This document shows positions 1 to 19,725 of a stretch of DNA of 29,703 nucleotides, piece by piece. The first letter of the stretch is position 1; each line of letters starts with the position of its first letter. The stretch comes from Agrococcus beijingensis (GTDB taxonomy: Bacteria; Actinomycetota; Actinomycetes; Actinomycetales; Microbacteriaceae), in contig NZ_CP132360.1 in assembly GCF_030758955.1 (NCBI RefSeq), positions 2,193,461 through 2,223,163 of the forward strand, in the 5' to 3' direction. The notes below the pieces were generated by a model that saw only the letters and a program-made list of their open reading frames with translations, ran no database searches and had not been told where the DNA came from. A program made the position numbers and the translations under genes.

Positions 1-2
1 CC

Positions 3-875: not shown

Positions 876-1101
876 ACACGCAATCCCGCACGGCGAAACG
901 ATCGTACTTACAGAGTGGCTCAGTGGGATCACCGCTTATGCGATAGACCAAGTCTGACCACGTCGGGTTCAGTGATGCACCTGGCGGTCGCACACTTTAA
1001 TGTCCGTCGTCCGTCTCGATTTCGTTTCCTGAGCTCCTTCGCGCACCTTCTGGTCGCAGAGGTCACCCGTCGTGTGTGGGTGTCTGCGGGAGGAGGATGC
1101 A
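876..1101 (+). promoter_or_regulatory. Regulatory gap before ardC-like gene with two copies of the GCACCT motif
   Basis: This 226-base non-coding gap separates the AraC gene from the start of the DNA-handling block. It holds two related motif copies, around 975-991 (TGCACCTGGCGGTCGCA) and 1040-1057 (GCGCACCTTCTGGTCGCA). Both belong to the recurring CACCTG element found before other genes of the element. A strong Shine-Dalgarno (GGAGGAGG, 1089-1096) precedes the ATG at 1102. The likely main promoter of the block lies here, but I cannot identify -35/-10 boxes with confidence; TTTAAT near 996-1001 is a weak candidate. Confidence 0.45.
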
Positions 1102-2184: not shown

Positions 2185-3092
2185 TGGGTGCCGCCGATCT
2201 GTTCACCGAAGTCGGCGGGATGCCGCTCTCGGAGGCAGCGGCGCGGTTCGCTGCGGCGGGGGTGCCGGTGTTTCCATGCTTGCCCGGTGAGAAACGCCCT
2301 TTGGTGCTCCGCGGGTTTCATGATGCCACCGCTGATCCGGCGCAAGTCGCGGAATGGTGGTCAAGGTGGCCGTCCGCGAACATCGGCATCCCCACCGGTG
2401 CCGTGTCCGGGGTGGAGGTTGTCGATGTCGACGTGCATCCGACTGGCACCGGATTTCCTGCTTTCCGCGAAGCGCACCGTCAAGGCCATGCCGCGGGGTG
2501 GGCTGCGCTCGTGCGCACCCCCTCCGGTGGCCTCCACGCTTACTACCCGGTGAACCCTGACCGTGCGCAGTCGTCCTGGCAGGCCGCGCGGGCGCATGTT
2601 GATTTCCGTGGTGACGGCGGCTACATCATCGCGCCGCCGTCGAAGGTGCTGCGCCCCGGCGGGGTGCGGGCAGCGTACCGGCTCATCGTCGCATCAGGTG
2701 ATACCCCGGTGCCAGTGGATGCGGTGCGGCTGCGCGAGTTTCTGGACCCGCGCACTCCGATCTCTATCGACCGTGTGCGTGCTGCTCGGTTTGAGCGGCG
2801 GGGGTCGGATGCGAAGGTGCTCGCCGGCTGGGTGGCGGGGCGTGGTGAGGGTGAGCGGAACCGGGGCCTGTTCTGGGCCGCGTGCCGACTCGCAGAATCC
2901 GGCACCCCACTCGACGCAACCCTCGACGCCCTGGGCCCTGCGGCGGAGCACGCGGGACTGGGGCCGCGGGAGATCATGGCGACGATCCGATCCGCCTACC
3001 GCACCACCCACCCCACACCGCATACGTCTGTAGAGCCCGGAGCGGACGAGCGGCGTGTGGTGCGCGGATCACCAGGGCGGGTGATCTTATGA
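2184..3092 (+). CDS. Bifunctional primase/polymerase (Prim-Pol) domain protein
   Basis: About 302 residues. The N-terminal two thirds match the archaeo-eukaryotic-type Prim-Pol domain: GEKRPL near residue 36, an acidic D81-V-D83 metal-binding pair in EVVDVDVHP, and SGGLH at 114-118 followed by YY. The C-terminal third (residues ~200-280) is a short helical domain, RGEGERNRGLFWAACRLAE, as seen after Prim-Pol domains in mobile-element replication proteins. No helicase domain is attached, so it probably works with another replication protein. It would prime synthesis on the transferred strand or during element replication. The ATG at 2184 has GAGGAG six bases upstream; GTG at 2181 is an alternative. 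The start overlaps the previous stop, and the stop overlaps the next ATG (ATGA), so translation is coupled on both sides. Confidence 0.88.
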   Translation: MGAADLFTEVGGMPLSEAAARFAAAGVPVFPCLPGEKRPLVLRGFHDATADPAQVAEWWSRWPSANIGIPTGAVSGVEVVDVDVHPTGTGFPAFREAHRQGHAAGWAALVRTPSGGLHAYYPVNPDRAQSSWQAARAHVDFRGDGGYIIAPPSKVLRPGGVRAAYRLIVASGDTPVPVDAVRLREFLDPRTPISIDRVRAARFERRGSDAKVLAGWVAGRGEGERNRGLFWAACRLAESGTPLDATLDALGPAAEHAGLGPREIMATIRSAYRTTHPTPHTSVEPGADERRVVRGSPGRVIL

Positions 3093-3769
3093 ACACCACC
3101 GAGGCTGTTTCGCCGCGGGGTCGCCGGTTGGCGGTGGTGACGGCGATCACGGGCACGGTGTTCATCGCAGCCGGCGCGTTCTGGCTCAGCTTTACGGCGC
3201 TTGCCGACCTTGCCCGCCGGTCTGGGATCGATGCGGGGCAGGCGTGGGCGTGGCCGTTGATCGTGGACGGCATCATCGTCGTCGCAACTGTCGCCGTCGT
3301 CGCCCTCGCCAGCCAGTCCCGCCCGACCTGGTACCCCTGGACGCTTCTCGCCGCCGGCGCCGTCGTGTCGGTGACGGCGAATGCGATCCACGCGATCATC
3401 GCCTCAGACACCGACGTCCCGCCGGTGCTTGCCGCATCGGTCGCGGCGATCCCGCCGCTGGTGCTGCTGTCGATCACACACCTCACCGTCTTCCTCACCC
3501 GCCCCACCACCACACCGGGCGCAGACGTGATCGAGGCCGCTCCTGCCGAGACGGTCGCCCCGTCTCAAACGGTCGCCGTACGAGAAATGGAGCCGAAATC
3601 GGCAATGGAGTTTCCGGTGGTATCGGTGAGTGAGCGGCGGGCGGAGGCGACGCAATTGCGGGACGTGGAGGGGTGGTCGAACAAGCAGATCGCCCGGCAC
3701 CTGGGCGTGCACCCCTCCACCGTCGGCCGCTGGTTCACCCCAGCCATCAGCAAGGAGGAAACCCCATGA
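3089..3769 (+). CDS. DUF2637-type membrane protein with C-terminal helix-turn-helix
   Basis: 226 residues. Four hydrophobic segments are visible (about residues 16-36, 50-70, 77-97 and 112-134), matching the DUF2637 family of actinobacterial plasmids and ICEs. After a hydrophilic linker, residues ~183-217 (AEATQLRDVEGWSNKQIARHLGVHPSTVGRWF) form a clear helix-turn-helix of the resolvase/sigma-like kind. The protein therefore combines a membrane anchor with a probable DNA-binding tail. It could tether element DNA at the membrane, act as a membrane-bound regulator, or serve in plasmid-spread-like functions reported for Streptomyces membrane proteins; the last is an analogy only. It is coupled by ATGA overlaps to both neighbours, with GCAAGGAGG serving the next gene. 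Confidence 0.8.
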   Translation: MNTTEAVSPRGRRLAVVTAITGTVFIAAGAFWLSFTALADLARRSGIDAGQAWAWPLIVDGIIVVATVAVVALASQSRPTWYPWTLLAAGAVVSVTANAIHAIIASDTDVPPVLAASVAAIPPLVLLSITHLTVFLTRPTTTPGADVIEAAPAETVAPSQTVAVREMEPKSAMEFPVVSVSERRAEATQLRDVEGWSNKQIARHLGVHPSTVGRWFTPAISKEETP

Positions 3770-4200
3770 ACGACCACACAGAGACACACCGCACTGAGCT
3801 ACCGGAGACGCGGCCAGAAATGGTCGAGGGTGCGGAGGCGGAGCGGTCTGCGTTCGCCGTGCACCGCGACCCCTCACTCACCAAAGTAGGCGCTGATCCT
3901 GGTTCGCTGGTGGGGCGCGGGATCGCGTGGGTGCGTCCGACTGATCTGATCGCGTCGAGCACCGCCAGGATCGCGGGCCGCGGCATCAACTTTCAGACCG
4001 CCCTCGCGCACCGTGCCCGCCGCGCGCCAGGTCACGCCTACCGTGCGACCCGGGATCATGCGCGCGACATTCGGGATCGCCGAGCCGAACGAGCGGCACC
4101 CGCGGGGCCGGCAGTATTCGAGTCATTCGATGTGTTCGAGCCACAGGATCGTCCGCGCTCGTCGTCGTGGGTGCGGCCGTCCGGGATCGGGCTGGGGTGA
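3766..4200 (+). CDS. Hypothetical element protein, arginine-rich
   Basis: 144 residues with no family I recognise. The ATG at 3766 overlaps the previous stop (ATGA) and is preceded by AAGGAGG (3752-3758), so the shorter start is preferred over upstream in-frame starts. The N-terminal 60 residues are acidic and polar. The middle (GRGIAWVRPTDLIASSTARIAGRGINFQTALAHRA) is mildly amphipathic, and residues ~85-115 are strongly basic (RATRDHARDIRDRRAERAA). A basic patch of this sort could bind nucleic acid or the acidic face of a partner. There is no membrane segment or signal peptide. Its place in a run of coupled genes suggests a role in DNA handling or regulation. Confidence 0.65.
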   Translation: MNDHTETHRTELPETRPEMVEGAEAERSAFAVHRDPSLTKVGADPGSLVGRGIAWVRPTDLIASSTARIAGRGINFQTALAHRARRAPGHAYRATRDHARDIRDRRAERAAPAGPAVFESFDVFEPQDRPRSSSWVRPSGIGLG

Positions 4201-4244
4201 ACGGCTATGCGCAGAAGACGGTGGTGGGGTGGCGGTGGGGAGCC

Positions 4245-4275
4245 GGTGCGCACCTGCCTGTCAGGAGGTGCCACC
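4245..4275 (+). promoter_or_regulatory. CACCTG motif with hairpin covering the ribosome-binding site
   Basis: The sequence GGTGCGCACC (4245-4254) is a perfect palindrome. CACCTGCCTG at 4251-4260 can fold back on CAGGAGGTG at 4262-4270, which contains the Shine-Dalgarno of the gene at 4276. The loop would be very short for full pairing, so partial pairing is more likely. CACCT mimics the anti-Shine-Dalgarno of 16S rRNA, so masking of the ribosome site is plausible. It is one of several related sites in the window. Confidence 0.45.
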
Positions 4276-5145
4276 ATGCCACAACGAAACACTCCACGTC
4301 GCGATGGTCGCGGGCGTGGGTTCGAGAACTCAGAACGACTCCGCGAACTCCTCACCCGCCTCGACGCTGAGGGGCCGGACGCCTGGCGGAATGACCCGGT
4401 CGCTACCGAACTCATGCGGTACGCGGCCGACAAGTACGCCGCGCTCGCGCGCAAGCACGGTCTTGATCCGTGGGAGGCGGCGACCGCGGCGTTCGAGGCG
4501 ATGCGTGCGCCCTCGGTGCGGCGGGCGGATGATCCGTGGGCGGTCATCACCCGTGCCGTGCAGATCACCTGCATCGCAGAAAACCGCGCCAACGGACTCC
4601 TGTGCTCCGTGCACCAGGCACGCAGACCCAGATACTCGAGTTTCCATGACGCCGAACGCTTCTCCGACCGCGAAAACCTCCTCACCGACTACCACCCCGC
4701 ATTCCGCGCCGACCCCTTCACTGACGACGACGAAGACGACGCTGACGACGAGGTGGAAGCGTCAGGGGCGACGGGAGTGGAGTCAGCGGTCGAAGACACA
4801 ATCGCACTGCTGTGCTGGTACGGGTGGGAACCAGTGGTCGCCCGCGCGGCGATCGAGTGCATCTGCGCACGCCTCGCAGAATCCGTCTCACGAGCGGGAG
4901 CATATGAATCGCTGCGGCGTGATCGTCACGCCCGGGCACTCCTCGATATCCCCGCACCGTCCTGGTATCGGCTGCTGCGCATCGTCCTCGGATCACCAGA
5001 CGCAAGCCTGACCGGTACGAATGCGAGCCGTGGCGTGCTGCTGCGGCTCCTGATTGGCGAATCACTCCGGCATCTCCTCACTGATGTTGACCTCGCGGTC
5101 GCCGTCACGGTTGCCGCGCCCGGGGTGATGCGAGACCGGCCATGA
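4276..5145 (+). CDS. Hypothetical protein with faint sigma-70-like regions
   Basis: 289 residues. The ATG at 4276 follows CAGGAGG, so it is preferred over the in-frame ATG at 4207. Residues ~35-110 (LMRYAADKYAALARKHGLDP, then EAATAAFEAMR and PWAVITRAVQ) recall the helical arrangement of sigma-70 region 2. A very acidic linker follows (residues ~152-175, rich in D and E). The C-terminal helical part (ARAAIECICARLAES, then YRLLRIVLGSPD) could correspond to a region-4-like or other helical domain. No family is recognised with certainty. It may be an element-specific transcription factor; the evidence is resemblance only. It ends in an ATGA overlap with the ParB-like gene, so the two are likely expressed together. 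Confidence 0.65.
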   Translation: MPQRNTPRRDGRGRGFENSERLRELLTRLDAEGPDAWRNDPVATELMRYAADKYAALARKHGLDPWEAATAAFEAMRAPSVRRADDPWAVITRAVQITCIAENRANGLLCSVHQARRPRYSSFHDAERFSDRENLLTDYHPAFRADPFTDDDEDDADDEVEASGATGVESAVEDTIALLCWYGWEPVVARAAIECICARLAESVSRAGAYESLRRDRHARALLDIPAPSWYRLLRIVLGSPDASLTGTNASRGVLLRLLIGESLRHLLTDVDLAVAVTVAAPGVMRDRP

Positions 5146-6218
5146 CCACGCCGGGGCATATCGAGCTGGAGCGGGCCGTCGAGTCGATCTGGTCCGGCCG
5201 CCGCCACCGCGAGGACTACGGCGACATCGACGCGCTGGTGGAGTCGATCACGCGGGATGGGCTGTTGCAGCCGATCACGATCACCCCGGACGGGATGCTG
5301 ATTTGCGGTGCCCGCCGTTTGGCTGCGATCCGCAGGCTCGGGTGGAAGACGGTGAACGTGTGGGTGCGCTCCGGTATCTCCACCACCCTCGGGCAGCTCC
5401 TCGCCGAACAGGACGACAATCTCCTGCATAAGCCCCTCACCCGTACCGAGGAAGCCGCTCTCTATGCCGAATTGAAAGCGCTCATGGTCGAGGATGCGAC
5501 GGGCCGACAGGAAGCGTCACGGTTCACCTCGAAACAAGAAAACCCCAGGTCACACGGTGGGGCCACGGTGGCCCCACCGTCGGCCGGGAGTATCGGGAAG
5601 ACCCGCGAGCAGGCCGCGCTCATGGTCACCGGCCGCAACGCCTATACCTCGCTCGAACGCATCAACGAGTTGCAGAACCTTGCCGCTGACCCGGCACAGA
5701 CCGACGACGTACAGCAGCGGGCACGGGAGGAACTTGACCGGATCGACGCGGGCGGGTCGATCACCGGAGCGCAGCATCGCATCAAAGCCGCGCAAGCCCT
5801 CGCCGAACTCGACACCCTCGCGGGCGACCTCGCACAACCGGCAGGCATCCGCGACACCGCAGCCGCAGGCGCGACCCGGATCCGGGAGCTCGAAGACACG
5901 GCACGGCCGGCCGATCTGGAACGGCTCGCGGTACTCGCTGTCGAGCGTGCGAGGACTGCGACGAAGAAGCGCCCCTCCCAGCTCGCATCCGCACGCCTTC
6001 ACGCGGTTGAGGAGCAGCCGCGGGAGTTCCTGCCGGTGCGGTCGTTCGTCTACCTCTGGGATGAACTCTCCACCTGGACCGAACGCTACGACCCCGAAAC
6101 CATCGGCCCAGCCCTGTCTGGTGAGCAGTGGGCGATGTTCGAGAACGCCGTCACTGCAACCGTCGCGTTCCTGGATGCCGCCCGCACTGCACGAAACGTG
6201 CGCCGCGAAACCGCCTGA
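5142..6218 (+). CDS. ParB-like (ParB/Sulfiredoxin N-terminal domain) protein
   Basis: 358 residues. Residues ~5-95 form a ParB N-terminal domain: the start HIELERAVESIW, then DALVESITRDGLLQPITI, then MLICGARRLAAIRRLGW with the GxRR motif. After it come TRTEEAALYAELKALM and a HTH-like stretch near AGSIGKTREQAALM (residues ~146-160). The rest is a long helical, charged region. ParB proteins bind centromere-like DNA, and many stray ParB-domain proteins in mobile elements act as regulators or nucleases. No ParA partner is present in the window, which argues against ordinary partitioning. Its start overlaps the stop of the previous gene (ATGA), and it is the last gene before a gap with a CACCTG motif and the secretion genes. 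Confidence 0.82.
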   Translation: MTTPGHIELERAVESIWSGRRHREDYGDIDALVESITRDGLLQPITITPDGMLICGARRLAAIRRLGWKTVNVWVRSGISTTLGQLLAEQDDNLLHKPLTRTEEAALYAELKALMVEDATGRQEASRFTSKQENPRSHGGATVAPPSAGSIGKTREQAALMVTGRNAYTSLERINELQNLAADPAQTDDVQQRAREELDRIDAGGSITGAQHRIKAAQALAELDTLAGDLAQPAGIRDTAAAGATRIRELEDTARPADLERLAVLAVERARTATKKRPSQLASARLHAVEEQPREFLPVRSFVYLWDELSTWTERYDPETIGPALSGEQWAMFENAVTATVAFLDAARTARNVRRETA

Positions 6219-6248
6219 CCCTCCGCCGCCTCCCTGCCCTGAATGCTG

Positions 6249-6295
6249 TGGTGCACCTGTCTGGTGATCCGAATCTCGTCGGGAAGGACACCAGG
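6249..6295 (+). promoter_or_regulatory. CACCTG motif and inverted repeat before the secretion gene block
   Basis: TGGTGCACCTGTCTGGTGA (6249-6267) is the best-conserved type of the recurring motif. CTGGTG at 6261-6266 is complementary to CACCAG at 6289-6294, which ends one base before the ATG at 6296; flanking ATCC/GGA adds imperfect pairing. The Shine-Dalgarno (GGAAGGA, 6282-6288) lies in the loop and 3' arm. Confidence 0.45.
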
Positions 6296-6982
6296 ATGGA
6301 CCCCACCGCTCGCCGCCGCCGCACCGTGCTCATCGCCGCCACAGCTGTCGGCCTGATCCTGCTCCTCCTCATCGGCGTCGGGGTCTACGGACTCACCCGC
6401 GGCCCCCAGACCACCGAACCCGCCCGTCCCGATGGGCCGACGGCAACGAACCCGGCACACGTCCCGGCAGAACCGGAAGCCGTGGTCACCCTCGGTGGGT
6501 CGGAAAAGTTCGCAGGCGCGGTTGCGGAAGCGCTGTTTACCTGGGATACGACCAGTGGGTATGGGCCTGCCGATTACGCGCAGATGCTCGCCGATGTAAC
6601 CGCCGACACGGAAGCCGACGCGGCTGCATCCGATGTCCGTTCCTATCTGCCGACCCAGGAGGCATGGACGCAGCTCCGCACGCATCAGACGCGGCAGTGG
6701 CTCACCATCGACACGATCGAGATCCCTGCCGCGTGGGAGGATGCGGTGGTGCAGGCGGCGCCGGGGCAGATTCCTGACGGTGCGGTCGCGTATACGATCA
6801 CCGGCACCCGCCACCGCACCGGCTACTGGGGCACCGACCCGGTCACGACAACGCACCCGGTCGCGTTCACCGTGTTCCTCACCTGCACACCCGAACGCAC
6901 CTCCGCACCGGCGCCTGCCGCTCCAATCACTGAAACGTGCGCGGTGTTGCGGTTGTCGCAGCTCGACAACCCGCTGCGGTGA
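6296..6982 (+). CDS. Membrane-anchored type IV secretion subunit, probably VirB8/TcpC-like
   Basis: 228 residues. The ATG at 6296 has GGAAGGA upstream. A short basic N-terminus (TARRRR) is followed by one transmembrane segment (residues ~11-33) and a Pro/Thr-rich linker to ~60. The soluble outer domain (about residues 65-228) has the length and layout of an NTF2-like fold, as in VirB8 and TcpC; I infer this from architecture and operon position, not from clear sequence motifs. Two cysteines near the end (FLTCTP and ETCAVL) could form a disulfide outside the membrane. It leads the block of secretion genes and is followed six bases later by the cell-wall hydrolase, consistent with an envelope-spanning complex. 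Confidence 0.7.
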   Translation: MDPTARRRRTVLIAATAVGLILLLLIGVGVYGLTRGPQTTEPARPDGPTATNPAHVPAEPEAVVTLGGSEKFAGAVAEALFTWDTTSGYGPADYAQMLADVTADTEADAAASDVRSYLPTQEAWTQLRTHQTRQWLTIDTIEIPAAWEDAVVQAAPGQIPDGAVAYTITGTRHRTGYWGTDPVTTTHPVAFTVFLTCTPERTSAPAPAAPITETCAVLRLSQLDNPLR

Positions 6983-6988
6983 CCGGCC

Positions 6989-8170
6989 ATGCTCAAGAAA
7001 CTCCTCGCCGCCCTCACCGTCGCCGCCGTCTGTTTCGGCCCCGCGACCGTGCTCCTGTCCGTCGCTGTCCTCGTCAATCCTGCTGTCGCTGCGTGCGCGC
7101 CGGGGTCGTTGATCGTCGGGCCGATCCCGGACTCGCTCACTGCGACGACGCGCAATGGTGAGACGGTGACGTTGAATCGTCAGCAGCTCACCCACGCTGC
7201 GACCGTCATCACGGTTGGTGGGCAGACGGATGGGGTGGGGCGTCCGGGGGTGGTGATCGCGTTGATGGCGGCGCTCACGGAGTCGCACCTGCGGATGCTC
7301 GCCAACACCGGCACCTACCCAGAATCCGCGAACTACCCCAACGACGGGGATGCGTCCGATCACGACTCTCTCGGTCTGTTTCAGATGCGCCCGCAAGCAG
7401 GGTGGGGCTCTGTCGCGGAACTCATGGACCCGAACTATCAAGCCCGCGCCTTCTACGGCGGACCCACCGGACCCAACTACCCCTCACCGCGCGGGCTGCT
7501 CGACATTCCGGGGTGGCAGCAGCTCGACCCAGGCGAAGCGGCGCAGGCCGTTGAGGTGTCGGCGTTCCCGGACCGGTATCAGAACTATCAGCCCGTCGCC
7601 GAAGCGATCCTCACCGCACTCACCCGCCCCGCGCCATCAACCGGCGGCGGTGGAGGCGGTGAGGTGGTGGTGCCGGAGACCACCAGGGTCGTGTTCCCGT
7701 TGCCGGAGGGCTCCTGGGTGCGGACCAGCCCGTTCGGGTGGCGCACCGACCCGATCACCTTCGAGACCGCGTTCCACTCGGGCAGCGACTTCGCCGCGCC
7801 TGACGGCACCCCGATCTACGCTGTCGCCGATGGGATCGTCACCCAAGCCGGATACACCGGCTCCTGGGGTGGGCTCATCATCGTGGAGCACACCGTCGGC
7901 GGAGAGCGGGTCGCGTCCTATTACGCGCATATGTGGGAGCACGGCATCCACGTCACCGAAGGCATGACCGTCACCGCCGGGCAACACATCGGCGATGTCG
8001 GCTCCTCCGGAAAATCCACCGGGCCCCACCTCCACCTCGAAATCCGGCCCGGAGGTCAAGGGCAGCCCGCGATCGACTCCGACCAATGGCTCACCGACCA
8101 CGACGCCGAAGGCATCACCGGCGGCAACACCTCCCGTGCATCCTGCACCCTGAACGGAGGTGGGCGCTGA
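6989..8170 (+). CDS. Cell-wall hydrolase: lysozyme-like domain plus M23 endopeptidase
   Basis: 393 residues. A hydrophobic N-terminus (residues ~5-32, ending PAVAAC) is a signal peptide or anchor. Residues ~60-205 resemble a transglycosylase/lysozyme-like domain: IALMAALTESHLRMLAN with the probable catalytic Glu in TESH, then DHDSLGLFQMRPQAGWG. A Gly/Pro/Ser linker follows. The M23 (LytM-type) domain covers ~230-370, with zinc ligands H263 and D267 in HSGSD and H349 in HLHLE, plus H347. Such two-headed hydrolases open the peptidoglycan for the conjugation channel of Gram-positive bacteria (VirB1-like role). The gene starts six bases after its neighbour and overlaps the next start by one base, so it is in the same operon. 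Confidence 0.9.
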   Translation: MLKKLLAALTVAAVCFGPATVLLSVAVLVNPAVAACAPGSLIVGPIPDSLTATTRNGETVTLNRQQLTHAATVITVGGQTDGVGRPGVVIALMAALTESHLRMLANTGTYPESANYPNDGDASDHDSLGLFQMRPQAGWGSVAELMDPNYQARAFYGGPTGPNYPSPRGLLDIPGWQQLDPGEAAQAVEVSAFPDRYQNYQPVAEAILTALTRPAPSTGGGGGGEVVVPETTRVVFPLPEGSWVRTSPFGWRTDPITFETAFHSGSDFAAPDGTPIYAVADGIVTQAGYTGSWGGLIIVEHTVGGERVASYYAHMWEHGIHVTEGMTVTAGQHIGDVGSSGKSTGPHLHLEIRPGGQGQPAIDSDQWLTDHDAEGITGGNTSRASCTLNGGGR

Positions 8171-8436
8171 TGGACGTGTTCCCTGACTTCGGCGGCGTCG
8201 GCGCAGCCGACGACCTCCGCACGGTGATCGGTGCGCTACTGATGTTCGTACTCATCATCGCCGTACTGATGCTGATTATCTCCGCGATCATCTGGGCCAT
8301 CTCATCTTCGACCGGTAACCCGCACACCGCCACAAAAGCCCGGCTCGGGGTCTGGGTGGCACTCGGCACGGCAGCCCTCGCCGGAGCCGGTGTCGCCTGG
8401 GTCAACTTCCTCCTGGGCGTCGGCGACCGCTTGTAG
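8170..8436 (+). CDS. DUF6112-like small membrane protein (first copy)
   Basis: 88 residues with two transmembrane segments (about 21-45 and 60-82) around a short loop, SSSTGNPHTATKARLGVW. It is clearly paralogous to the protein at 9937-10206: both share the SNPH/GNPH loop, a GVW/GVL second helix start and a NFxxGVG end. The size, two-helix hairpin and location between the hydrolase and the TrbL-like gene suggest a VirB2/VirB3-like pilin or channel subunit; this is inference. Its ATG overlaps the A of the previous TGA. After its stop, a GACAGGAGGTTGCGAG sequence (8448-8463) looks like an unused ribosome site, perhaps left over from the gene order before the minus-strand gene was inserted. Confidence 0.8.
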   Translation: MDVFPDFGGVGAADDLRTVIGALLMFVLIIAVLMLIISAIIWAISSSTGNPHTATKARLGVWVALGTAALAGAGVAWVNFLLGVGDRL

Positions 8437-8474
8437 GCGTGTCGGTGACAGGAGGTTGCGAGGTACCAGTCTTC

Positions 8475-9833
8475 CTAGAACGGGAGTGCGGGCGAGGATG
8501 CATCTGAAGCGGTCTGTGCTCGTTCGTCTTCGGTGTCGTTCTGCCACTCAGTTTTGATCGCGATGATGAGTTCACGGTCGGAGCCCAGTTTTGCCATTGC
8601 CTTCTTGAACGCCTGAGAACGCGTGCTTGCTGTTCCGATGAATCCGCGTGAGATGAGCTGGGTGAAGGCCCCTCGCCCGAGGTACTTGGTGTTGTTGTAG
8701 GTCACTCGGAAGCCAGATCGTGGGCCGGCTTTGAACGTCGAATCAGTCATGGCGAGCCGCATCCAGTCAGCGGAGACATACATGCCTTTGAGCGTCTTCC
8801 CGTCGAGTTTTCGACCAGCGTCTCCGCGCACGAACTTGAACCAAAATGGGGTATCGAAAGCTCGCCAGTCGATGGTCTTCCTCGGGACTTCACGGCCTTT
8901 CGGCATGAGATTGAGTTGTTTCTCTATCTCGTTCTTACGTCGATAAACCCACTCGTAGCTGCCGCTCCCGTCGCCGCTGTCAGCTCGTTCCAGTCTCTTG
9001 TATTGAACGAAGGTGAAAGCGTCGTGAACCTGATCCCAGTAGAGAAGGTCGACACCAAGCTCTTCCTCTATGGGTTTCTTGTTGACAGACATGACGAGGA
9101 GCTTCCGTTGGCCGCTGCGATCCTCGAACACGGCGAGGCTGGCCGCCCGTTGATCGGCGATCAGCTTGCCATCGAAACGTTGAAGATCGAGCGGCAGAAG
9201 CTCCTCCTCCATATCTCGCTCATACCCAGCGTTTAGCACGGTATCGAGAAGTGTCTCTTTTTCCTCGACGCTGGGCGGCTCGCTGAAAGCATCCGCGGGC
9301 AACGGAATCTCAGCAATCTGCGAAGCCAGCAAGACCGCATCACGCGCTTCAACTCTCGATTGCTGCACCTCGTCATCGAAGGTGCGCGGCGATCTGAATA
9401 CGGAATCCAGCCACGGTCCGACCGTTGGGTCAACCTGTCTGAGATGTTCGAGGAGAGCTCTTGCTGTAGGACTATCGAGTCGACGTGCGTAGAAGCGCTG
9501 CGGCATTGACGGCATCGAGACTGCCTGTTCTCTCAGTTCTCCGAACTCAAGAGGCGCGAGCAGACGAAGGATCGGCGACAAGGTCGCGCGTAGCGTTCCG
9601 CTCGCAATGCCGGCGACGCCGCGCGTGACAGCCAACCCGATCAGATAGTCCCCGGTGCCGAGTTCTTCATCTCCTTCGCGCACGATGGCGCAGAGGGAAC
9701 CGAAGGTCGGGGTGGATTCTTTGTCGAACGCTTCGCTGATTTTCTCGACGCTCAGATAGCTGATCCGGTTCGCGCCCTTCGCGTGGACGACGTACATCAC
9801 TAAAGGCGGCATCGTCTCGGTGCGTCCGGTCAT
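8475..9833 (-). CDS. Unknown cargo protein with a PD-(D/E)XK-like (QxK) nuclease signature
   Basis: 452 residues, the only minus-strand protein gene within the element, placed between two DUF6112 paralogues. I do not recognise the whole protein. Residues ~218-282 show a beta-strand-rich core: a hydrophobic strand (KLLVMSV), then GVDLLYWD with D262, and FTFVQYKRL with Q277-Y-K279. The D...QxK spacing (about 14 residues) fits the active site of Mrr-like restriction endonuclease folds; E256-E258 precede it. The N-terminal half is mostly helical; the C-terminal third (residues ~320-430) is basic. GC content is visibly lower than in flanking genes. The start at 9833 has no usable spacer after AGGAG, but TAAAAT lies six bases upstream, typical of a leaderless transcript. 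I infer an accessory defence or anti-competitor function; a non-nuclease role is possible. Confidence 0.72.
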   Translation of the reverse strand: MTGRTETMPPLVMYVVHAKGANRISYLSVEKISEAFDKESTPTFGSLCAIVREGDEELGTGDYLIGLAVTRGVAGIASGTLRATLSPILRLLAPLEFGELREQAVSMPSMPQRFYARRLDSPTARALLEHLRQVDPTVGPWLDSVFRSPRTFDDEVQQSRVEARDAVLLASQIAEIPLPADAFSEPPSVEEKETLLDTVLNAGYERDMEEELLPLDLQRFDGKLIADQRAASLAVFEDRSGQRKLLVMSVNKKPIEEELGVDLLYWDQVHDAFTFVQYKRLERADSGDGSGSYEWVYRRKNEIEKQLNLMPKGREVPRKTIDWRAFDTPFWFKFVRGDAGRKLDGKTLKGMYVSADWMRLAMTDSTFKAGPRSGFRVTYNNTKYLGRGAFTQLISRGFIGTASTRSQAFKKAMAKLGSDRELIIAIKTEWQNDTEDERAQTASDASSPALPF

Positions 9834-9845
9834 CTCCTCATTTTA
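9834..9845 (-). promoter_or_regulatory. Probable leaderless -10 promoter element of the cargo gene
   Basis: On the minus strand, TAAAAT (9840-9845) is followed by six bases (GAGGAG) and then the ATG at 9833. This is the spacing of a -10 box to a transcription start at the A of the start codon, as in actinobacterial leaderless mRNAs. No convincing -35 box is seen. The GAGGAG is too close to the ATG to serve as a Shine-Dalgarno. Confidence 0.45.
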
Positions 9846-9876
9846 GGTGAGCTCCCAGATGCGCGATGGGGGCGCG

Positions 9877-9936
9877 GGTGCACCTGGCTGGCAAGTTCGC
9901 CATTCCCTGGCGTTTGTGAGCTGAAGGAGCATCCCT
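9877..9936 (+). promoter_or_regulatory. CACCTG motif in leader of second DUF6112 gene
   Basis: GGGTGCACCTGGCTGGCAA (9877-9895) matches the recurring motif. It lies 40-60 bases before the GTG at 9937, whose Shine-Dalgarno is GAAGGAG (9922-9928). Only short local complementarity (TGGC with GCCA, 9889-9902) is visible. The site also lies just upstream of the divergent minus-strand gene. Confidence 0.4.
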
Positions 9937-10206
9937 GTGATTGATATTGACCCGAACGGTACCGGGCTTCCCGGTATCGAGCAGTTGCGCATCATCGTCG
10001 GCGCGGTGATGACCGTCGGCCTGATCCTCTCCGTCCTCGCCCTGATCGTCTCCGCGATCGTATGGGGCTTCGGCGCGAACAGCAGCAACCCGCATCTCGC
10101 TTCGCGCGGGAAGGTCGGCGTGCTCGTGTCCTGCGGCGCGGCGATCATCTGCGGCGCGTCGGTGACGCTCATCAACTTCTTCTGGGGCGTCGGCCAAGCC
10201 GTCTAA
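9937..10206 (+). CDS. DUF6112-like small membrane protein (second copy)
   Basis: 89 residues, starting at GTG 9937 after GAAGGAG. Two transmembrane helices (about 18-45 and 58-82) flank the loop ANSSNPHLASRGK. It is a diverged paralogue of the protein at 8170-8436, with the same length and loop. Members of this family stand next to TrbL/VirB6-like genes in actinobacterial ICEs, so a structural role in the mating channel is likely. The two copies have drifted enough that they probably do not replace each other. The next gene begins 30 bases later behind GGAAGGAGG. Confidence 0.8.
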   Translation: MIDIDPNGTGLPGIEQLRIIVGAVMTVGLILSVLALIVSAIVWGFGANSSNPHLASRGKVGVLVSCGAAIICGASVTLINFFWGVGQAV

Positions 10207-10236
10207 CCCCACCACGGACGAGGGAAGGAGGATGCG

Positions 10237-11625
10237 GTGAGTGTGTGTGATGTGCCGGTGATCTCGGCCGTATGCGACACCGTCGGGCAAGGAGCAGCGA
10301 CGTTGATCGCGGCCCCGTTCGACTGGCTCGCCCAGGCAATGGGCGGGGCGGCGGCGTGGCTGTTCGAGGCGGTCTGGACGGTATTCGACACCACTACCCT
10401 CGTCGACGTCACCGACGAAGGCTACGTCGGAGTCTACAACATCCTCTTCGGGGTCGCAGTGTTCGTGGTGCTGATCTTCTTCTGCCTGCAACTGATCACC
10501 GGCCTCGTCCACCGCGACCCCACCGCCCTCACCCGCGCCGCCCTGGGAGCTGCGAAAAGCATCCTCGGCTCGTTCGTCGCGATCGGTCTCACGGGGCTGT
10601 TGTTGGAGATCACGGATCAGCTCGCGGTCGGGATCGTGCAGGCCACGGGGAACACGATGGAATCTATCGGCGACCGCATCACCCTCCTCGCGGCAGGGTT
10701 CGCGGGGATCAACATCGCCGCCCCCGGTGTCGGGGCGATCGTCACGATCTTCCTCGCAGGACTCGCCATCAGTGCGGCTGCGATCGTGTGGTTCTCCCTC
10801 CTGATCCGCAAAGCCCTCCTCCTGGTCGCGATCGTATTCGCCCCGATCGCTCTCGCGGGGTTCTCGTGGGATGCGACCAAGGGGTGGTTCGGGAAATGGG
10901 CGACGTTCGTGATCGCGTTGATCTTGTCGAAGCTCGTGCTGGTGGTGATCTTCCTCGTCGCGATCACCCAAGTGTCTGCGCCGATTGAGCTTGATCTGGC
11001 GTCGATCAGTGATCCCATCGCAGGTGTGGTGTTGATGTTCATCGCTGCGTTCGCCCCATACATGACGTACAAGTTCGTCACGTTCATCGGCTTCGATATG
11101 TATCACTCGATGAGCGCCGAACAAGAAGCCAAATCCGCCCTCAACCGCCCCATCCCCGTCCCGTCAGCACCGAAGGCGGACGGGACGAAGAAGGTACTCG
11201 ACGGCGCCGACAACGGCGGTGGTGCGGCACCACCCAGTGAAGGCACCCCACCCGCAACGACGGCCACTCCCGCTACAGGAGGGGGCGCAGCGGGTGGTTC
11301 TGGTGCCGCAGCTGGTGCGGGGGCTGGGAGTGCGGGCGGCGGTGCTGGCGCAGCTGGTGCCGGGGCCGGCGGGGCTGCTGCTGCGGGGCCTGCGGCGGCG
11401 GTCGTTGTCGGGGCTCAGGTGGTCGGTGCGGCAGCGACCGCGGGGCCGAAGCTCGGTGGCAAGGTCGGCGGTGCTGCGGAAGGGCACGCGGCCGGGGCCG
11501 GTGAGACCGTGCAACCCGCACCACCACCTGCGCCGAATCACACACCGACCGCACCACCGGCACGACCTACACCCTCGACGCCGCCGCCTGTGCCGTCACC
11601 GAAGCCGTCTGCCGGGAAGGAATAA
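10237..11625 (+). CDS. TrbL/VirB6-like conjugal transfer membrane protein
   Basis: 462 residues, GTG start preceded by GGAAGGAGGATGCG. The N-terminal 290 residues contain about six to eight hydrophobic helices (for example IAAPFDWLAQAMGGAAAWLF, YNILFGVAVFVVLIFFCL, AGLAISAAAIVWFSLLI, FVIALILSKLVLVVIFLVAI and VVLMFIAAFAPYMTYK). This is the polytopic core of TrbL/VirB6 inner-membrane channel proteins. A motif KALLLVAIVFAPIALAGF precedes the W-rich segment typical of this group. The last ~150 residues are low-complexity: Gly/Ala runs and then Pro/Thr/Ser, probably a flexible cytoplasmic tail. It is followed by the SCO6880-type gene after three bases, so the two are co-translated. Confidence 0.85.
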   Translation: MSVCDVPVISAVCDTVGQGAATLIAAPFDWLAQAMGGAAAWLFEAVWTVFDTTTLVDVTDEGYVGVYNILFGVAVFVVLIFFCLQLITGLVHRDPTALTRAALGAAKSILGSFVAIGLTGLLLEITDQLAVGIVQATGNTMESIGDRITLLAAGFAGINIAAPGVGAIVTIFLAGLAISAAAIVWFSLLIRKALLLVAIVFAPIALAGFSWDATKGWFGKWATFVIALILSKLVLVVIFLVAITQVSAPIELDLASISDPIAGVVLMFIAAFAPYMTYKFVTFIGFDMYHSMSAEQEAKSALNRPIPVPSAPKADGTKKVLDGADNGGGAAPPSEGTPPATTATPATGGGAAGGSGAAAGAGAGSAGGGAGAAGAGAGGAAAAGPAAAVVVGAQVVGAAATAGPKLGGKVGGAAEGHAAGAGETVQPAPPPAPNHTPTAPPARPTPSTPPPVPSPKPSAGKE

Positions 11626-11628
11626 TCG

Positions 11629-13098
11629 ATGTCGACTCAGCAGAACACGAGCAGTGCAGGGTTTGGGCTGCGGGCGGTGCAGTTCTCCCGCCTCACCCGC
11701 CGCGGCATCCTCCTCGGCCTCTCCCTCCCGCAACTCATCGCCCTCGCCACAGGCGTCCTCTCCATCGTCGGCGCCCTCTACGCCGGCGGCGGGATACTGC
11801 TGGCCTGGACCGCACCCATCTGGCTCCTCTCCGCCGTCCTCGCCTGGACCCCGGTCGGGGGCCGGAAACTCATCGAATGGGTGCCCGTCACCTTCCGGTG
11901 GGTTGCCCGCACGCAGGCACGGCAGACGGTGTTCCGGCGGCGGGTCGTGAAACCGCGTCCTGCGGGGACGCTCGCTCTTCCAGGTGATGCGGCGTCGCTT
12001 CGGGAGTGGGAGGACCCGGAGACCGGGGCGGCGATGATCCACGACCCCCATCACCAGACCCTCACCGCGATCGTCGGCGTCTCACATCCCGCGTTCGTGC
12101 TCCTCGACCCCGGAGAGCAGGAACGCCGCGTCGCCACCTGGGGGCGCGTGCTCGCCACCACCTGCCGGTCCGGGCGGATCGCCCGCCTGCAAGTGTGCGA
12201 ACGCACCCTCCCCGATGGGGGTTCCGGGCTGGTCGAATGGTGGCAACGCCACGGCACCGATGACGGTTCCTGGACCTCCACCGTGTACCGGGAACTCATC
12301 GACCGTGCCGGTCCCGCCGGGGAACGCCACGCCACCACCATCAGCCTTGCCCTCGACCTCAAAGCCTCAGCCCGACAGGTACGCACCAACGGCGGCGGAA
12401 TCAAAGGTGCCGCCGCCGTCCTTCGCCAAGAGATGACAACGCTCGTGACCGCGTTTCGGGCGGCGGAGCTCACGATCACCGGGTGGCTCACCCCCGCTCA
12501 GGTCGCGGTGATCCTCCGCTCCGCCTACGACCCCGCTACCGCGGCGATCCTCGAACGGAACACCGACATCGGGCGTTCCCTTGCGACTGCGGGGCCGGTC
12601 GCGGTCACCGAGTCGTGGGATCGCCTGCGGTCGGATTCCGCGCACCATGCGGTGCTGTGGGTGTCGGAGTGGCCGAGGTCGCAGGTGTATCCGGGGTTTC
12701 TCGCCCCGGTGTTGTTGTCGTCGGGGATTCAACGTTCGTTCTCGCTGGTGTGCACGCCGATCCGGTCGGATCAAGCAGCCCGTGACATCAGGAAGAAGAA
12801 GACCGAACTGATCTCAGATGCGGCGCAGCGGCAGAAAATGGGGCAGATCGAAGACGCCTCTCAAACCGCCGAATACGGTGATGTCCTCCAACAAGAAGCC
12901 GACCTCACCGCCGGCCACGGTGTGCTCCGCTACACCGGCCTCATCAGCGTCAGCGCGCCGTCCCCGGAAGAACTCGACACCGCGGTCGCGGCGATCGAAC
13001 AGGCCGCGATCCAAGCGTCTTGTGAGACCCGCCGTCTTGTTGGGCAGCAGGCGCAAGCCTTCACGGTCGCAGCGTTGCCGCTGTGCCGCACCGTCTGA
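11629..13098 (+). CDS. SCO6880-type type IV secretion protein (VirB3/VirB4 N-terminal half)
   Basis: 489 residues. Two hydrophobic segments near the start (about 28-50 and 55-75: GILLGLSLPQLIALATGVLS and GGILLAWTAPIWLLSAVLAW) resemble a PrgI/VirB3-like membrane part. The remainder matches the actinobacterial SCO6880 family, which corresponds to the N-terminal non-ATPase domain of VirB4 and lacks a P-loop. The ATPase part is encoded separately at 13894-15372, so VirB4 function is split between two proteins. Landmarks include HDPHHQTLTAIVGVSHPAF and WVSEWPRSQVYPGFLAPVLL. It probably docks the ATPase to the membrane channel. The next gene starts 19 bases later. Confidence 0.85.
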   Translation: MSTQQNTSSAGFGLRAVQFSRLTRRGILLGLSLPQLIALATGVLSIVGALYAGGGILLAWTAPIWLLSAVLAWTPVGGRKLIEWVPVTFRWVARTQARQTVFRRRVVKPRPAGTLALPGDAASLREWEDPETGAAMIHDPHHQTLTAIVGVSHPAFVLLDPGEQERRVATWGRVLATTCRSGRIARLQVCERTLPDGGSGLVEWWQRHGTDDGSWTSTVYRELIDRAGPAGERHATTISLALDLKASARQVRTNGGGIKGAAAVLRQEMTTLVTAFRAAELTITGWLTPAQVAVILRSAYDPATAAILERNTDIGRSLATAGPVAVTESWDRLRSDSAHHAVLWVSEWPRSQVYPGFLAPVLLSSGIQRSFSLVCTPIRSDQAARDIRKKKTELISDAAQRQKMGQIEDASQTAEYGDVLQQEADLTAGHGVLRYTGLISVSAPSPEELDTAVAAIEQAAIQASCETRRLVGQQAQAFTVAALPLCRTV

Positions 13099-13117
13099 GA
13101 GCAAGTAGGAGCCCGTC

Positions 13118-13897
13118 ATGCCGACCTTCCAGAACCCGACCGCCGACGCCGCGGAAGCGTCCGAAGCGCTCCGCGGCCTCGCACATGCGACCCGTACGTT
13201 TGAGAACCCCGCCGACACCTACACTGTGCTCGGTGATCTCCTTGCCGGGGTGCGATCCCTCCGGCAAGTGCTCGACCAGCTCGCCACCGCCCACTCCACG
13301 AACCAAGTGCGCGCTTATGACGACGCCGGGAACCAAGGTGTCGGCGCAAGTCACGCTTTCACCGCGGCCGCCGAACTGCGGCAGGCCGCGGCGTTGCTCG
13401 ATGGGGTGCACGACCAGGTGGATGCCGCCATGGGCGCCTCGGGGCGTATCGCATGGCGCCCCGCCCCTTCAGACTCTGTCCCTGCCCGGCGGGTGGGGAT
13501 CGTGTTCCTGCAAGGACAGGACGCCGACGAGGTGCTGGCCATCATCGACCGTGACGGCACTGATGCGGCGATCGAGCACCTGGCCGGGTTCGACATGGGC
13601 GAAGAGACCACACAGGCGGCGCTCGTCAACGGATACGTCTACGACACCATCCCCGCCGGCCCGCTCGACCGCACCACCACCGCAGGCATCTACACGCTGA
13701 CGTACAACCATGACCACGGGCACGTCTCCCTCCTCCGCACGCACCCGGAGACACGAGAACCGGATGCCGGAGCTCCGGCGACGCGGACTGCGCCGAGCCA
13801 TCCACAGCCACGCCGCCAAGCGCCCGTGGTCGAAGACGAGGATGACTGGTTCGCACCGTCGCAGTCCTCCTCGGTGTCTCGGGGGCGAGCGCTGTGA
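13118..13897 (+). CDS. Hypothetical element protein between the two VirB4 halves
   Basis: 259 residues, family not recognised. Residues ~1-115 look all-helical, with heptad-like hydrophobic spacing (LAGVRSLRQVLDQLATAH, AAELRQAAALLDGVHDQVDAAM) and could form a helical hairpin. Residues ~125-210 look like a compact alpha/beta domain (VGIVFLQGQDADEVLAIID, EHLAGFDMGEETTQAALVNG, GIYTLTYNHDHGHVSLLR). The tail is Pro-rich and acidic (VVEDEDDWFAP). There is no signal peptide or membrane segment, so it should be cytoplasmic. Its stop overlaps the GTG start of the VirB4-like ATPase (GTGA), and coupling to that gene suggests the protein works with the ATPase. The ATG at 13118 is preceded by AGTAGGAG. 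Confidence 0.7.
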   Translation: MPTFQNPTADAAEASEALRGLAHATRTFENPADTYTVLGDLLAGVRSLRQVLDQLATAHSTNQVRAYDDAGNQGVGASHAFTAAAELRQAAALLDGVHDQVDAAMGASGRIAWRPAPSDSVPARRVGIVFLQGQDADEVLAIIDRDGTDAAIEHLAGFDMGEETTQAALVNGYVYDTIPAGPLDRTTTAGIYTLTYNHDHGHVSLLRTHPETREPDAGAPATRTAPSHPQPRRQAPVVEDEDDWFAPSQSSSVSRGRAL

Positions 13898-15372
13898 CCG
13901 ATCGGCAGAAGCTCCATACCGCGGCGTTGGTCGAACCGGCCGGGGAACGCCGCCGGCAGCGGAAAGCACGCAAGCACGCGGCCACGAAGATCGAGACCAA
14001 CGCACGCCGCACTGAGCAGTCGGCAGAGCGTGAACGGGTGGCCGCTGAGCGTGCCGAACGCCGAAACACCACCTACCTGCCCGCCGCAGGCGAACCAGGG
14101 GCAGCGGCGTTACGGACGCCGGGCAGGTTGCGATTGCCGCGGCATCAGGACACGTCCGCGACGCTCGCGGGCGCCTACCCGTTCCTCGCCGAAGGTGGCC
14201 TCGGTGCTGACGGCGTGTTCATCGGCCAGGACCTGTACTCGGGTGGCTCGTTCGTCTACGATCCCTGGACTCTGTACGCCCGCGGGGTCATCACCGCACC
14301 CAACATTGTCCTCGCTGGCATCGTCGGGTCCGGTAAATCCTCACTCGCGAAATCGCTCTATGCGCGGTCGATCCCGTTTGGTCGCCGTGTGTATGTGCCC
14401 GGCGATCCGAAGGGTGAGCATACGGCGGTGGCGGAGGCTGTTGGTGGGCGAGCGATCGTGCTCGGGCATGGGCTTCGCAACCGGCTCAACCCGCTCGATG
14501 AGGGCCACCGCCCGTCCGGGGTGAGCGATGCGGAATGGGCGGCGCAAGTCGCGTCCCGCCGCCGGGAACTCATCGGCGCGCTCGCAGAAACCGTGCTGGA
14601 TCGGGTGCTGTCGCCGTTGGAGCACACCGCGATCGACCTCGCTCTCCAAGACAGCGTCCGCACCGCTGACGTGCCGATCCTGCCTATGGTGGTCGACCGC
14701 ATCCTGAGCCCCGATCCTGCGACCGACACGGATGGCCGGCTGGCAGAAGACGGCAGGCTCGTCGGCCACGCCCTCCGCCGCCTCGTGGCGGGCGATCTTG
14801 CCGGATTGTTCGATGGGCCATCGACGGTCAGGTTCGACCCATCGCTCCCGATGGTGAGCTTGGACCTGTCCCGCGTCGCGGAGAACTCGACGCTGATCTC
14901 CGTGCTGATGACCTGCTCCAGCGCGTGGATGGAGTCGGCGTTGATGGACCCGAACGGCGGGCACCGGTGGGTGATCTACGACGAAGCCTGGCGACTCATG
15001 GCCTACCCAGCTCTCCTGCGCCGTATGGACGCGCAATGGCGGCTCGCCAGGCATTACGGGATCGCGAACATGCTGATCTTCCACAAACTCACCGACCTCG
15101 ACAACGTCGGCGACCAAGGCTCCGCGATGCGCGCCCTCGCCAACAGCCTGTTGGCGAATGCGGAGACCAGGATCATCTACCGGCAAGAACCCGACCAGCT
15201 CGGAGCCACCGCCGCAGCCCTCGGACTCACCGGCACCGAACAGAAACTCCTCCCAGGACTCGGCACCGGGCAAGGACTCTGGCGCATCAAAGAACGCTCC
15301 TTCGTCGTCCAGCACCAACTTCACCCGGCCGAGCTCGCCGCGTTCGACACCACCGCGAGGATGAAGGGCTAA
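13894..15372 (+). CDS. VirB4-like type IV secretion ATPase (C-terminal half)
   Basis: 492 residues. A highly basic, Arg/Ala/Glu-rich N-terminus (residues ~1-60, possible coiled coil) precedes the ATPase domain. The Walker A motif is G142-I-V-G-S-G-K148-S-S, and Walker B is RWVIYDEAW with D363-E364. The order and spacing (GQDLYSGGSFVYDPW before the P-loop; RRMDAQWRLARHYGIANML and a LLANAETRIIYRQ after Walker B) match VirB4/TraE-type ATPases. It should power assembly of the conjugation channel and substrate transfer at the inner face of the membrane. It pairs with the SCO6880-type protein as the other half of VirB4. The GTG start overlaps the preceding stop. Confidence 0.9.
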   Translation: MTDRQKLHTAALVEPAGERRRQRKARKHAATKIETNARRTEQSAERERVAAERAERRNTTYLPAAGEPGAAALRTPGRLRLPRHQDTSATLAGAYPFLAEGGLGADGVFIGQDLYSGGSFVYDPWTLYARGVITAPNIVLAGIVGSGKSSLAKSLYARSIPFGRRVYVPGDPKGEHTAVAEAVGGRAIVLGHGLRNRLNPLDEGHRPSGVSDAEWAAQVASRRRELIGALAETVLDRVLSPLEHTAIDLALQDSVRTADVPILPMVVDRILSPDPATDTDGRLAEDGRLVGHALRRLVAGDLAGLFDGPSTVRFDPSLPMVSLDLSRVAENSTLISVLMTCSSAWMESALMDPNGGHRWVIYDEAWRLMAYPALLRRMDAQWRLARHYGIANMLIFHKLTDLDNVGDQGSAMRALANSLLANAETRIIYRQEPDQLGATAAALGLTGTEQKLLPGLGTGQGLWRIKERSFVVQHQLHPAELAAFDTTARMKG

Positions 15373-15532
15373 ATGCTCAGGTTCAGGATTTCTGAACTCT
15401 GATTCCGCGTGATTCTGCGGGTTTTGGCCGATCTGTGGGGTGTTGTGAGGGTGCAAGTTCCCGCGCCCACCGATCCTCTCGTAATGACTGTTTCGGCGTG
15501 CCGGTTCGCACCTATCCCTCGATTGACACGCC
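15373..15532 (+). promoter_or_regulatory. Regulatory gap between VirB4-like ATPase gene and dprA
   Basis: This 160-base gap is less GC-rich than its surroundings. It contains a small hairpin GTTCAG/CTGAAC (15381-15386 and 15392-15397), then CCGC/GCGG followed by GTTTT (15405-15425), which together could terminate transcription weakly. A degenerate motif copy, GGTTCGCACCTATCC (15503-15517), sits between GGCGTG (15495-15500) and CACGCC (15527-15532), complementary arms whose 3' half abuts the ATG at 15533. TTGACA at 15524-15529 resembles a -35 box, but no -10 follows. Confidence 0.4.
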
Positions 15533-16567
15533 ATGACCGAGGGAGCAGCACTGATGGACACGATCAACGAACTGGCAGCAGATGAGAGCACCGCGAGGAT
15601 CATCCTCGCTATCGCGTCCGAACCAGGAGATGCGGTGACGGGGCGGATGATTCGCACCGTCGGCGCATCCGAAACGGTCGCCCGCGTCCTCGCCGATGAA
15701 GTCCCGGCAGGGCCCGACGGTGACACCTGGCAGCGCCGCCTCGCACCACGCCTCGACGCCGCACAAATCCAGCGGGTGCTTGCTGAGACAGAGCGGCACG
15801 GGATGCGGGTGCTGATCCCCGGCGATGCTGAATGGCCTGCCGGGATCGACGCGCTCGGTGATGGCGCGCCGGTGGCGTTGTGGGCGAAAGGCAACCCAGG
15901 GCTGCTGACCGGACCGATGTGGGATCGCCTCACCATCACCGGAGCCAGGGCGTCCACCGCCTACGGGGAACACGTCACCACGGAGCTGGTGCAGTCGGCG
16001 GTCGCCGACTCCCGTGTGGTGTTTTCGGGCGGCGCGTATGGGATCGATGGTGCCGCGCACCGTGCCGCACTCGCCTCGAATGGCTCAACGGTCGCCGTGC
16101 TCGCAGGCGGCTTGGATCGGCTGTATCCGGCAGGGCACACTGATCTGCTGACCCGTGTCGGCAAGGACGGCCTGTTGCTGTCGGAGTTGCCGCCGGGTGC
16201 GGCGCCGACGAAGTGGAGGTTCCTGCAACGAGGCAGGCTCCTCGCCGCGCTCTCCGGCACCGTCCTCATCGCCGAGGCCGGGTACCGTTCCGGCACCCTC
16301 CACACCGCCGCCCGCGCCGCCGAACTCGGCCGCCCGGTCGGGGCTATCCCCGGGCCGATCACGAGCGCCACCTCTACGGGCTGTCATCGGTTGCTGCGTG
16401 ACGGCCTCGCCACGGTGGTGACTGGCTATGAAGATGTGCGCGAGTTGCTGCATGGGGTTCGTGACCGGGCTCACCGTGCCGTGCGGGAGCGTGCGGGACT
16501 CGAGTCCGACCCGCTCGAGGCTGGGCCGTCGGCGCAGGGGCGGGATTTGAGGGGGCCGGTGTTGTGA
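15533..16567 (+). CDS. dprA: DprA/Smf-family DNA-processing protein
   Basis: About 344 residues; ATG at 15554 (behind GAGGGAG) is an alternative start that would drop seven residues. The central Rossmann-like domain shows the DprA hallmarks: LTITGARASTAYGEHVTTELV, then VVFSGGAYGIDGAAHRAAL, TVAVLAGGLDRLYPAGHTDL, LLLSELPPGAAPTKWRF, RGRLLAALSGTVLIAEAGYRSGTL and VGAIPGPITSATSTGCHRLL. DprA binds single-stranded DNA and loads RecA during natural transformation. On a conjugative element it may protect or process the strand entering the recipient; that role is inferred. An N-terminal part of ~75 residues is helical and not conserved in my memory of the family. It lies alone between two regulatory gaps, so it may have its own expression control. 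Confidence 0.9.
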   Translation: MTEGAALMDTINELAADESTARIILAIASEPGDAVTGRMIRTVGASETVARVLADEVPAGPDGDTWQRRLAPRLDAAQIQRVLAETERHGMRVLIPGDAEWPAGIDALGDGAPVALWAKGNPGLLTGPMWDRLTITGARASTAYGEHVTTELVQSAVADSRVVFSGGAYGIDGAAHRAALASNGSTVAVLAGGLDRLYPAGHTDLLTRVGKDGLLLSELPPGAAPTKWRFLQRGRLLAALSGTVLIAEAGYRSGTLHTAARAAELGRPVGAIPGPITSATSTGCHRLLRDGLATVVTGYEDVRELLHGVRDRAHRAVRERAGLESDPLEAGPSAQGRDLRGPVL

Positions 16568-16573
16568 GGCGGG

Positions 16574-16631
16574 TGGTGCACCTGGTGTGAAGGCGGCCGG
16601 CTCTGGTCGCTGATGAACACACACCAGGAGG
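16574..16631 (+). promoter_or_regulatory. CACCTG motif with 9-bp hairpin overlapping the ribosome-binding site
   Basis: TGGTGCACCTGGTGTG (16574-16589) carries the recurring motif. CCTGGTGTG (16581-16589) is perfectly complementary to CACACCAGG (16620-16628), and the Shine-Dalgarno AGGAGG of the surface-protein gene spans 16626-16631. The pairing would hide the start of the ribosome site. The ~30-base loop contains GGCGGCCGGC. The start codon GTG is at 16638. Confidence 0.55.
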
Positions 16632-16637
16632 TATCTC

Positions 16638-19640: not shown

Positions 19641-19650
19641 CCACAGGCTG

Positions 19651-19725
19651 CCGACCCTCCGGCACCCCCACCCCAGGGCGGGTCGGTATGGGAGGGCACG
19701 AACCACCCCAGGTTCGTGCCCTCCC
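19651..19725 (+). terminator. Strong hairpin terminator after the surface-protein gene
   Basis: A perfect 15-bp stem, GGGAGGGCACGAACC (19690-19704) with its complement at 19711-19725, closes a 6-base loop. It is preceded by a smaller repeat CCGACCC/GGGTCGG (19651-19657 and 19680-19686). There is no long T tract, which is common for high-GC actinobacterial terminators. Because the secretion genes continue beyond it, it may limit read-through from the surface gene. Confidence 0.65.

Follow-up and report, generated by a model that had tools for sequence, protein, structure and literature searches.

A lone 452-residue gene on the minus strand of Agrococcus beijingensis DNA (positions 8475-9833 of the 29,703-nucleotide stretch analysed, hereafter the window; contig NZ_CP132360.1, positions 2,193,461 to 2,223,163, in a 2.89-Mb one-contig genome) probably encodes a single-chain, modification-dependent (type IV) restriction endonuclease that works independently of nucleoside triphosphates and is carried as exchangeable defence cargo by an integrative and conjugative element (ICE). 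Under this reading, an N-terminal domain of the PUA superfamily would detect base modification in incoming DNA, probably on a cytosine or adenine that is flipped into a pocket, and a C-terminal PD-(D/E)XK domain (E209, D262, Q277, K279) would then cleave near the modified site, protecting the host or the element, probably against viruses with altered DNA. The gene itself would be a swappable defence cassette that occupies a constant site flanked by two genes of the transfer operon and lies on the opposite strand. The sequence itself establishes which residues are conserved, that the gene is cargo, and where the slot has its borders, while the two domains are assigned by predicted structure. 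An earlier note, made from the letters alone, had proposed a single-gene defence system and the best candidate for something undescribed. The first proposal gains support here, with the defence role itself suggested by the architecture and by the neighbours of some relatives; none of the three outcomes that the note had set against it was observed. The second holds for the family, which carries no name in the libraries searched, but not for the kind of enzyme, as modification readers fused to nucleases are already known or predicted. The gene and its predicted parts are as follows:

8475-9833, minus strand: cargo gene, 452 aa, ATG start; predicted PUA/EVE-like sensor plus PD-(D/E)XK nuclease
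9393-9803, minus strand: predicted PUA-superfamily (EVE/ASCH/YTH-like) domain, residues 11-147
8622-9215, minus strand: predicted PD-(D/E)XK nuclease core, approximately residues 207-404
9207-9209, minus strand: E209, invariant (95 of 95 rows), where the first helix of the nuclease core starts
9066-9068, minus strand: E256, invariant (95 of 95 rows)
9048-9050, minus strand: D262, predicted metal-binding aspartate of the GxD motif (95 of 95 rows)
8997-9005, minus strand: Q277-Y278-K279, which form the QxK part of the predicted active site (95 of 95 rows)

The evidence for the nuclease domain comes from conservation and from structural comparison. D262, Q277-Y278-K279, and the preceding "EEE ... 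GVD" segment, to which the earlier note had drawn attention, are all present. On its own, a D-x(8-20)-QxK string says little: such strings are not rare (single occurrences in 3 of 20 neighbouring proteins, and four starting positions in the 452-residue protein). Invariance, in turn, is strong evidence. The conservation check was made on an alignment of 95 rows (A4) containing the C-terminal part of the window protein, 45 relatives that the first two protein searches had returned, 13 proteins from fetched loci, and 36 proteobacterial proteins hand-picked down the 120 listed of 845 found. Short partial proteins, many near-duplicates, and a Pseudorhizobium open reading frame (ORF) that stops just past QYK (L027) were left out of the alignments, as was L014 from A4 only. 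Although identity to the window protein falls as low as 18%, E209, E256, G260, D262, Y265, Q277, Y278, K279, and K333 are invariant in all 95 proteins (the window's own counted). Fifteen of the 303 C-terminal residues are invariant in total, among them D262, Q277, and K279, and the chance that three random residues would all fall among the 15 is 1e-4. E209, E256, D262, Q277, and K279 thus supply the conserved acidic residues and the D-(x)n-(E/Q/D)xK motif that mark the PD-(D/E)XK superfamily. The predicted structure of this region has the alpha-beta-beta-beta-alpha-beta core with the catalytic residues, and it resembles PD-(D/E)XK nucleases with a modest Z score, in agreement with the nuclease core first proposed from the motif. 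Among the 50 matches listed in the structural comparison of the C-terminal model, 47 are nucleases, headed by RecU and Hjc. Plain Foldseek searches with this model returned no match at E<=0.001 and placed formamidases first (probability 0.05-0.15); the formamidases were set aside because their TM-scores are 0.14-0.18 and 47 of the 50 listed structural matches are nucleases. A Foldseek search against viral models likewise gave no match at E<=0.001. The QxK arrangement is the active-site form of Mrr, and the label "Mrr-type" previously given to the gene stands for this shared motif only, as no Mrr model (Mrr_cat) matched in the Pfam scan.

The N-terminal domain, absent from the earlier account, is what points to modification-dependent restriction. 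Its model is predicted to adopt a PUA-like beta-barrel fold, and its best structural matches are EVE and ASCH proteins with Z scores within 1 of each other; none of the family models tried matched it, and plain Foldseek with the full-length model found nothing at E<=0.001, an ASCH protein coming first at E 0.002. With sensor and nuclease predicted in one chain, the protein has the modelled layout of a type IV restriction endonuclease. A close likeness is to the EVE-PD(D/E)XK fusions, which are described as predicted type IV restriction enzymes (PMC7641849) and which have the same core architecture of a reader and a PD-(D/E)XK nuclease; the present sensor differs in being about equally ASCH-like and EVE-like and in matching no family model. 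Modification-dependent restriction endonucleases of the EVE-HNH type, VcaM4I among them, have an HNH nuclease rather than the predicted PD-(D/E)XK domain found here, and VcaM4I is only 10% identical to the 452-residue protein over the aligned domain. SRA-PD-(D/E)XK and PD-(D/E)XK-SRA enzymes include MspJI and PvuRts1I (PMC7897488). These also join a PUA-superfamily reader to a PD-(D/E)XK nuclease in one chain; the best sensor matches here are EVE and ASCH proteins. Neither MspJI, PvuRts1I, nor Mrr is among the 50 structural matches listed in the full-length or the C-terminal comparison, and the BisI family (Eco15I, NhoI) scored low Z in a comparison covering the C-terminal half of the protein only.

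The family to which the gene belongs is large and without annotation in the resources searched. A search with the window protein, in which 7,997 candidates were scored, found 83 proteins, all named "hypothetical" or "uncharacterized" and without Pfam domains; one (P0002) is identical to the window protein, and 52 of the 83 make up alignment A1. When the query was an alignment of eight relatives, most of them proteobacterial, 845 proteins were found at E<=0.001, overlapping the earlier search to some degree, and Pfam domains are absent from all 120 of those listed. The actinobacterial and proteobacterial alignments match each other in profile comparison over 409 columns with a probability score of 100, the N-terminal domain included. 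The window protein matched no Pfam family at E<=10 (filters remove most matches above ~0.1) and no NCBIfam, PADLOC, or PHROGs model; PADLOC models matched none of the 33 members of alignment A2 at E<=1, and a Pfam scan of ten distant relatives gave a single chance-level match in one. Against solved structures, the single sequence and the profiles gave weak matches only, the best (E 0.042) being a potassium-binding protein. There was no match to the window protein among 50,697 phage records, nor to the actinobacterial alignment among viral contigs; the proteobacterial alignment found one viral relative belonging to the proteobacterial branch, 24% identical, at positions 1993-3438 of an IMG/VR contig (L097). 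Of 396 genomes sampled from the host order, four contain a match, counting the window's own. Searches of the open-licence PMC literature found no report of the gene's family or of its cargo slot.

The neighbours of distant relatives were read in eight distinct plasmid loci of the proteobacterial branch, and ten chosen neighbour genes from five of them (L021-L024, L026) were scanned with PADLOC. On a Dinoroseobacter plasmid (L024, positions 5512-12012), a 621-aa gene without a name, the QxK gene, GajA, and GajB follow one another, possibly forming an extended Gabija locus. In Pelagibacterium (L022) the relative precedes a GajA-type gene, with GajB ~3 kb further on, past two transposase genes; in Novosphingobium (L026) it precedes PDC-M01A/B; and in Paracoccus (L023) it follows IetS. 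In L021, a gene annotated as a restriction endonuclease is found on the opposite strand, two genes upstream, but matches no PADLOC model. By annotation, no defence gene is present in L025, L027, L096, or the Kocuria locus (L020).

Such neighbours also bear on two other explanations. The PUA-like domain may read RNA or a structure, making the protein an RNA- or DNA-degrading abortive-infection effector with a PD-(D/E)XK nuclease. PUA/ASCH domains are frequently RNA-binding, some relatives adjoin Gabija-type and other defence genes, and ZmASCH, reported to be a ribonuclease (PMC5615036), is among the closest structural matches of the sensor; even so, we consider this explanation unlikely. Alternatively, the protein could be one component of a multi-gene defence system, such as a third Gabija partner, standing alone only where its partners come from elsewhere. 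The position directly before GajA-GajB, and before the GajA-type gene and PDC-M01A/B, in the three lineages named above would suit a subunit, but the neighbours differ between lineages, those in the ICE slot are transfer genes (L001-L007, L011), and the Kocuria locus has no such annotated partner, so a subunit role appears quite improbable.

The restriction endonuclease would be carried as cargo, and the setting of the gene in its element is consistent with this. The window holds part or all of an ICE whose plus-strand genes include ArdC-like, PrimPol, ParB-like, M23 peptidase, DUF6112, SCO6881-like, SCO6880, VirB4-like, DprA-like, VirD4-like, SSB, and serine-recombinase genes. As described previously, the 452-residue gene runs against this operon and splits two DUF6112 paralogues, the second of which is followed on the plus strand by SCO6881-, SCO6880-, VirB4-, and VirD4-like genes. 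Its GC content is lower, as had also been reported (0.575, with a third-position value, GC3, of 0.664, versus 0.669 for the remainder of the element within the window), and 20 neighbouring genes compared range from 0.639 to 0.692, none falling below 0.639. Between positions 8300 and 10300, the promoter scan gave no sigma-70-like site and a single terminator-like one, about the level of shuffled sequence. The slot and its surroundings are:

8436-9875, no strand: cargo slot; homology to three elements whose cargo differs or is missing (L058, L059, L061) ends at 8426-8435 and restarts at 9869-9876
8173-8436, plus strand: DUF6112 paralogue a, left slot border; the start codon is the analyst's choice, and the match lies within ORF 7933-8436 (E 4.2e-40)
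9876-9936, plus strand: conserved leader 5' of DUF6112 paralogue b, right slot border
9937-10206, plus strand: DUF6112 paralogue b (E 1.6e-21)
10237-11625, plus strand: SCO6881-like transfer-operon gene (92 bits, under the curated cutoff of 325)
11629-13098, plus strand: SCO6880-family transfer-operon gene (461 bits, cutoff 60), which served as bait for related elements

The end of DUF6112 a and the leader of DUF6112 b are taken as the slot borders because homology breaks there in all three elements. Copies of the gene at least 88% identical, from hosts including Leucobacter luti, Gulosibacter chungangensis, and Mycetocola reblochoni, occupy the identical position and orientation in all seven fetched loci (L002-L007, L011). 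One copy, in Actinomyces provencensis, is split after residue 307 by ~1.2 kb (L007, positions 10922-12089) with a 342-aa ORF that we take to resemble an IS630-type transposase. The Leucobacter luti locus (L002) is 99.98% identical to the window over 19.8 kb (window positions 1-19833); for the Gulosibacter locus the figure is 98.1% over 19.2 kb. These values suggest recent movement between genera. Beyond these close copies, the relatives in L008-L010 and L012-L019 (L016 apparently being the same locus as L009) have none of 22 tested window genes within their fetched flanks, which are ~1.5 kb long for L016-L019.

A survey of the slot within one host family shows how its contents vary. Of 199 genomes from this family, 45 encode SCO6880 or a relative, and 38 of 40 other SCO6880 places (identity of 63% or more across 420 residues or more) were examined, two at contig starts being omitted; seven of the 38 stretches lack one or both DUF6112 genes, leaving 31 comparable elements. 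The spacing between DUF6112 a and b is 79-176 bp in 16, 300-347 bp in three, and at least 495 bp in 12. The 452-residue gene is found in one of these elements (L060; this and L005 are evidently one record, both lying on a contig of 50,440 bases) and is missing from the other 30, so that 11 slots carry other DNA of at least 495 bp; the gene is thus cargo and not a fixed transfer component, in keeping with what the earlier note had supposed. Twenty slot ORFs were scanned with Pfam and ten with PADLOC, including two from L085, which lacks DUF6112 a and stands outside the slot counts. The contents include an AbiEi/AbiEii pair with a 418-aa ORF (L094, 1305-3985), a CoiA-type nuclease gene with a helix-turn-helix (HTH) gene (L092), a NUDIX gene (L065), an alpha/beta-hydrolase (L059), and, as a possible further defence gene, one whose 1,065-aa product gives weak STAND NTPase and LmuA signals (L076, 2364-5561). 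The start of the 418-aa ORF resembles that of a 464-aa ORF in L086. An element closely related to the window's (L058) carries in its slot (3009-4151; GC 0.59 versus 0.65 for its stretch) a different lone minus-strand gene of 380 aa, with no Pfam or PADLOC match and a weak PHROGs match. Judged by ORF score or family match, the cargo lies opposite to the operon in L058, L059, L065, and L084, and in the operon direction in L070, L076, L092, and the AbiE pair of L094.

The survey also weighs on the two remaining alternatives. A Holliday-junction or recombination nuclease (Hjc/RecU-like), aiding recombination or replication of the element, would agree with the top structural matches and with the DprA-, SSB-, and PrimPol-like proteins that the element also encodes. 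However, the gene is absent from nearly all sampled related elements, some relatives lie in defence contexts, and to our knowledge no PUA-type domain forms part of these resolvases, which leaves this role very improbable. That the gene is a component or regulator of the operon needed for conjugation, as its place inside the operon in all seven loci with close copies (one interrupted) might suggest, is hardly credible given its inverted orientation, its relatives with none of the 22 tested window genes in their fetched flanks, and the empty and swapped sites, which already largely refute it.

Genes for an ArdC-type anti-restriction protein and for a DprA-like one accompany the putative restriction enzyme in the ICE (window positions 1072-2184 and 15533-16567). 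In line with a type IV enzyme, which has no cognate methyltransferase at its side, no methyltransferase family appears among the matches for the 29 window ORF entries scanned (two ORFs entered twice), and the element may extend beyond the window.

More broadly, and only tentatively, the gene could represent a widespread unnamed family of PUA-PD-(D/E)XK defence nucleases in Actinomycetota and Pseudomonadota, found partly beside Gabija, with a fixed slot between DUF6112 genes that swaps defence and other cassettes. Because the window's cassette has no integrase, swapping may proceed by recombination in the conserved flanks. The transfer operon tolerates and exchanges cargo at one internal point, making this a place to seek further defence genes (e.g., the 380-aa gene of L058), and a conjugation operon would then serve as a landing pad for a rotating immune repertoire. 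If the restriction reading is right, a sizeable unannotated family, whose sensor escapes the family models tried, would join the single-gene modification-dependent restriction enzymes, which would matter for how actinobacteria resist phages and could supply enzymes specific for modified bases.
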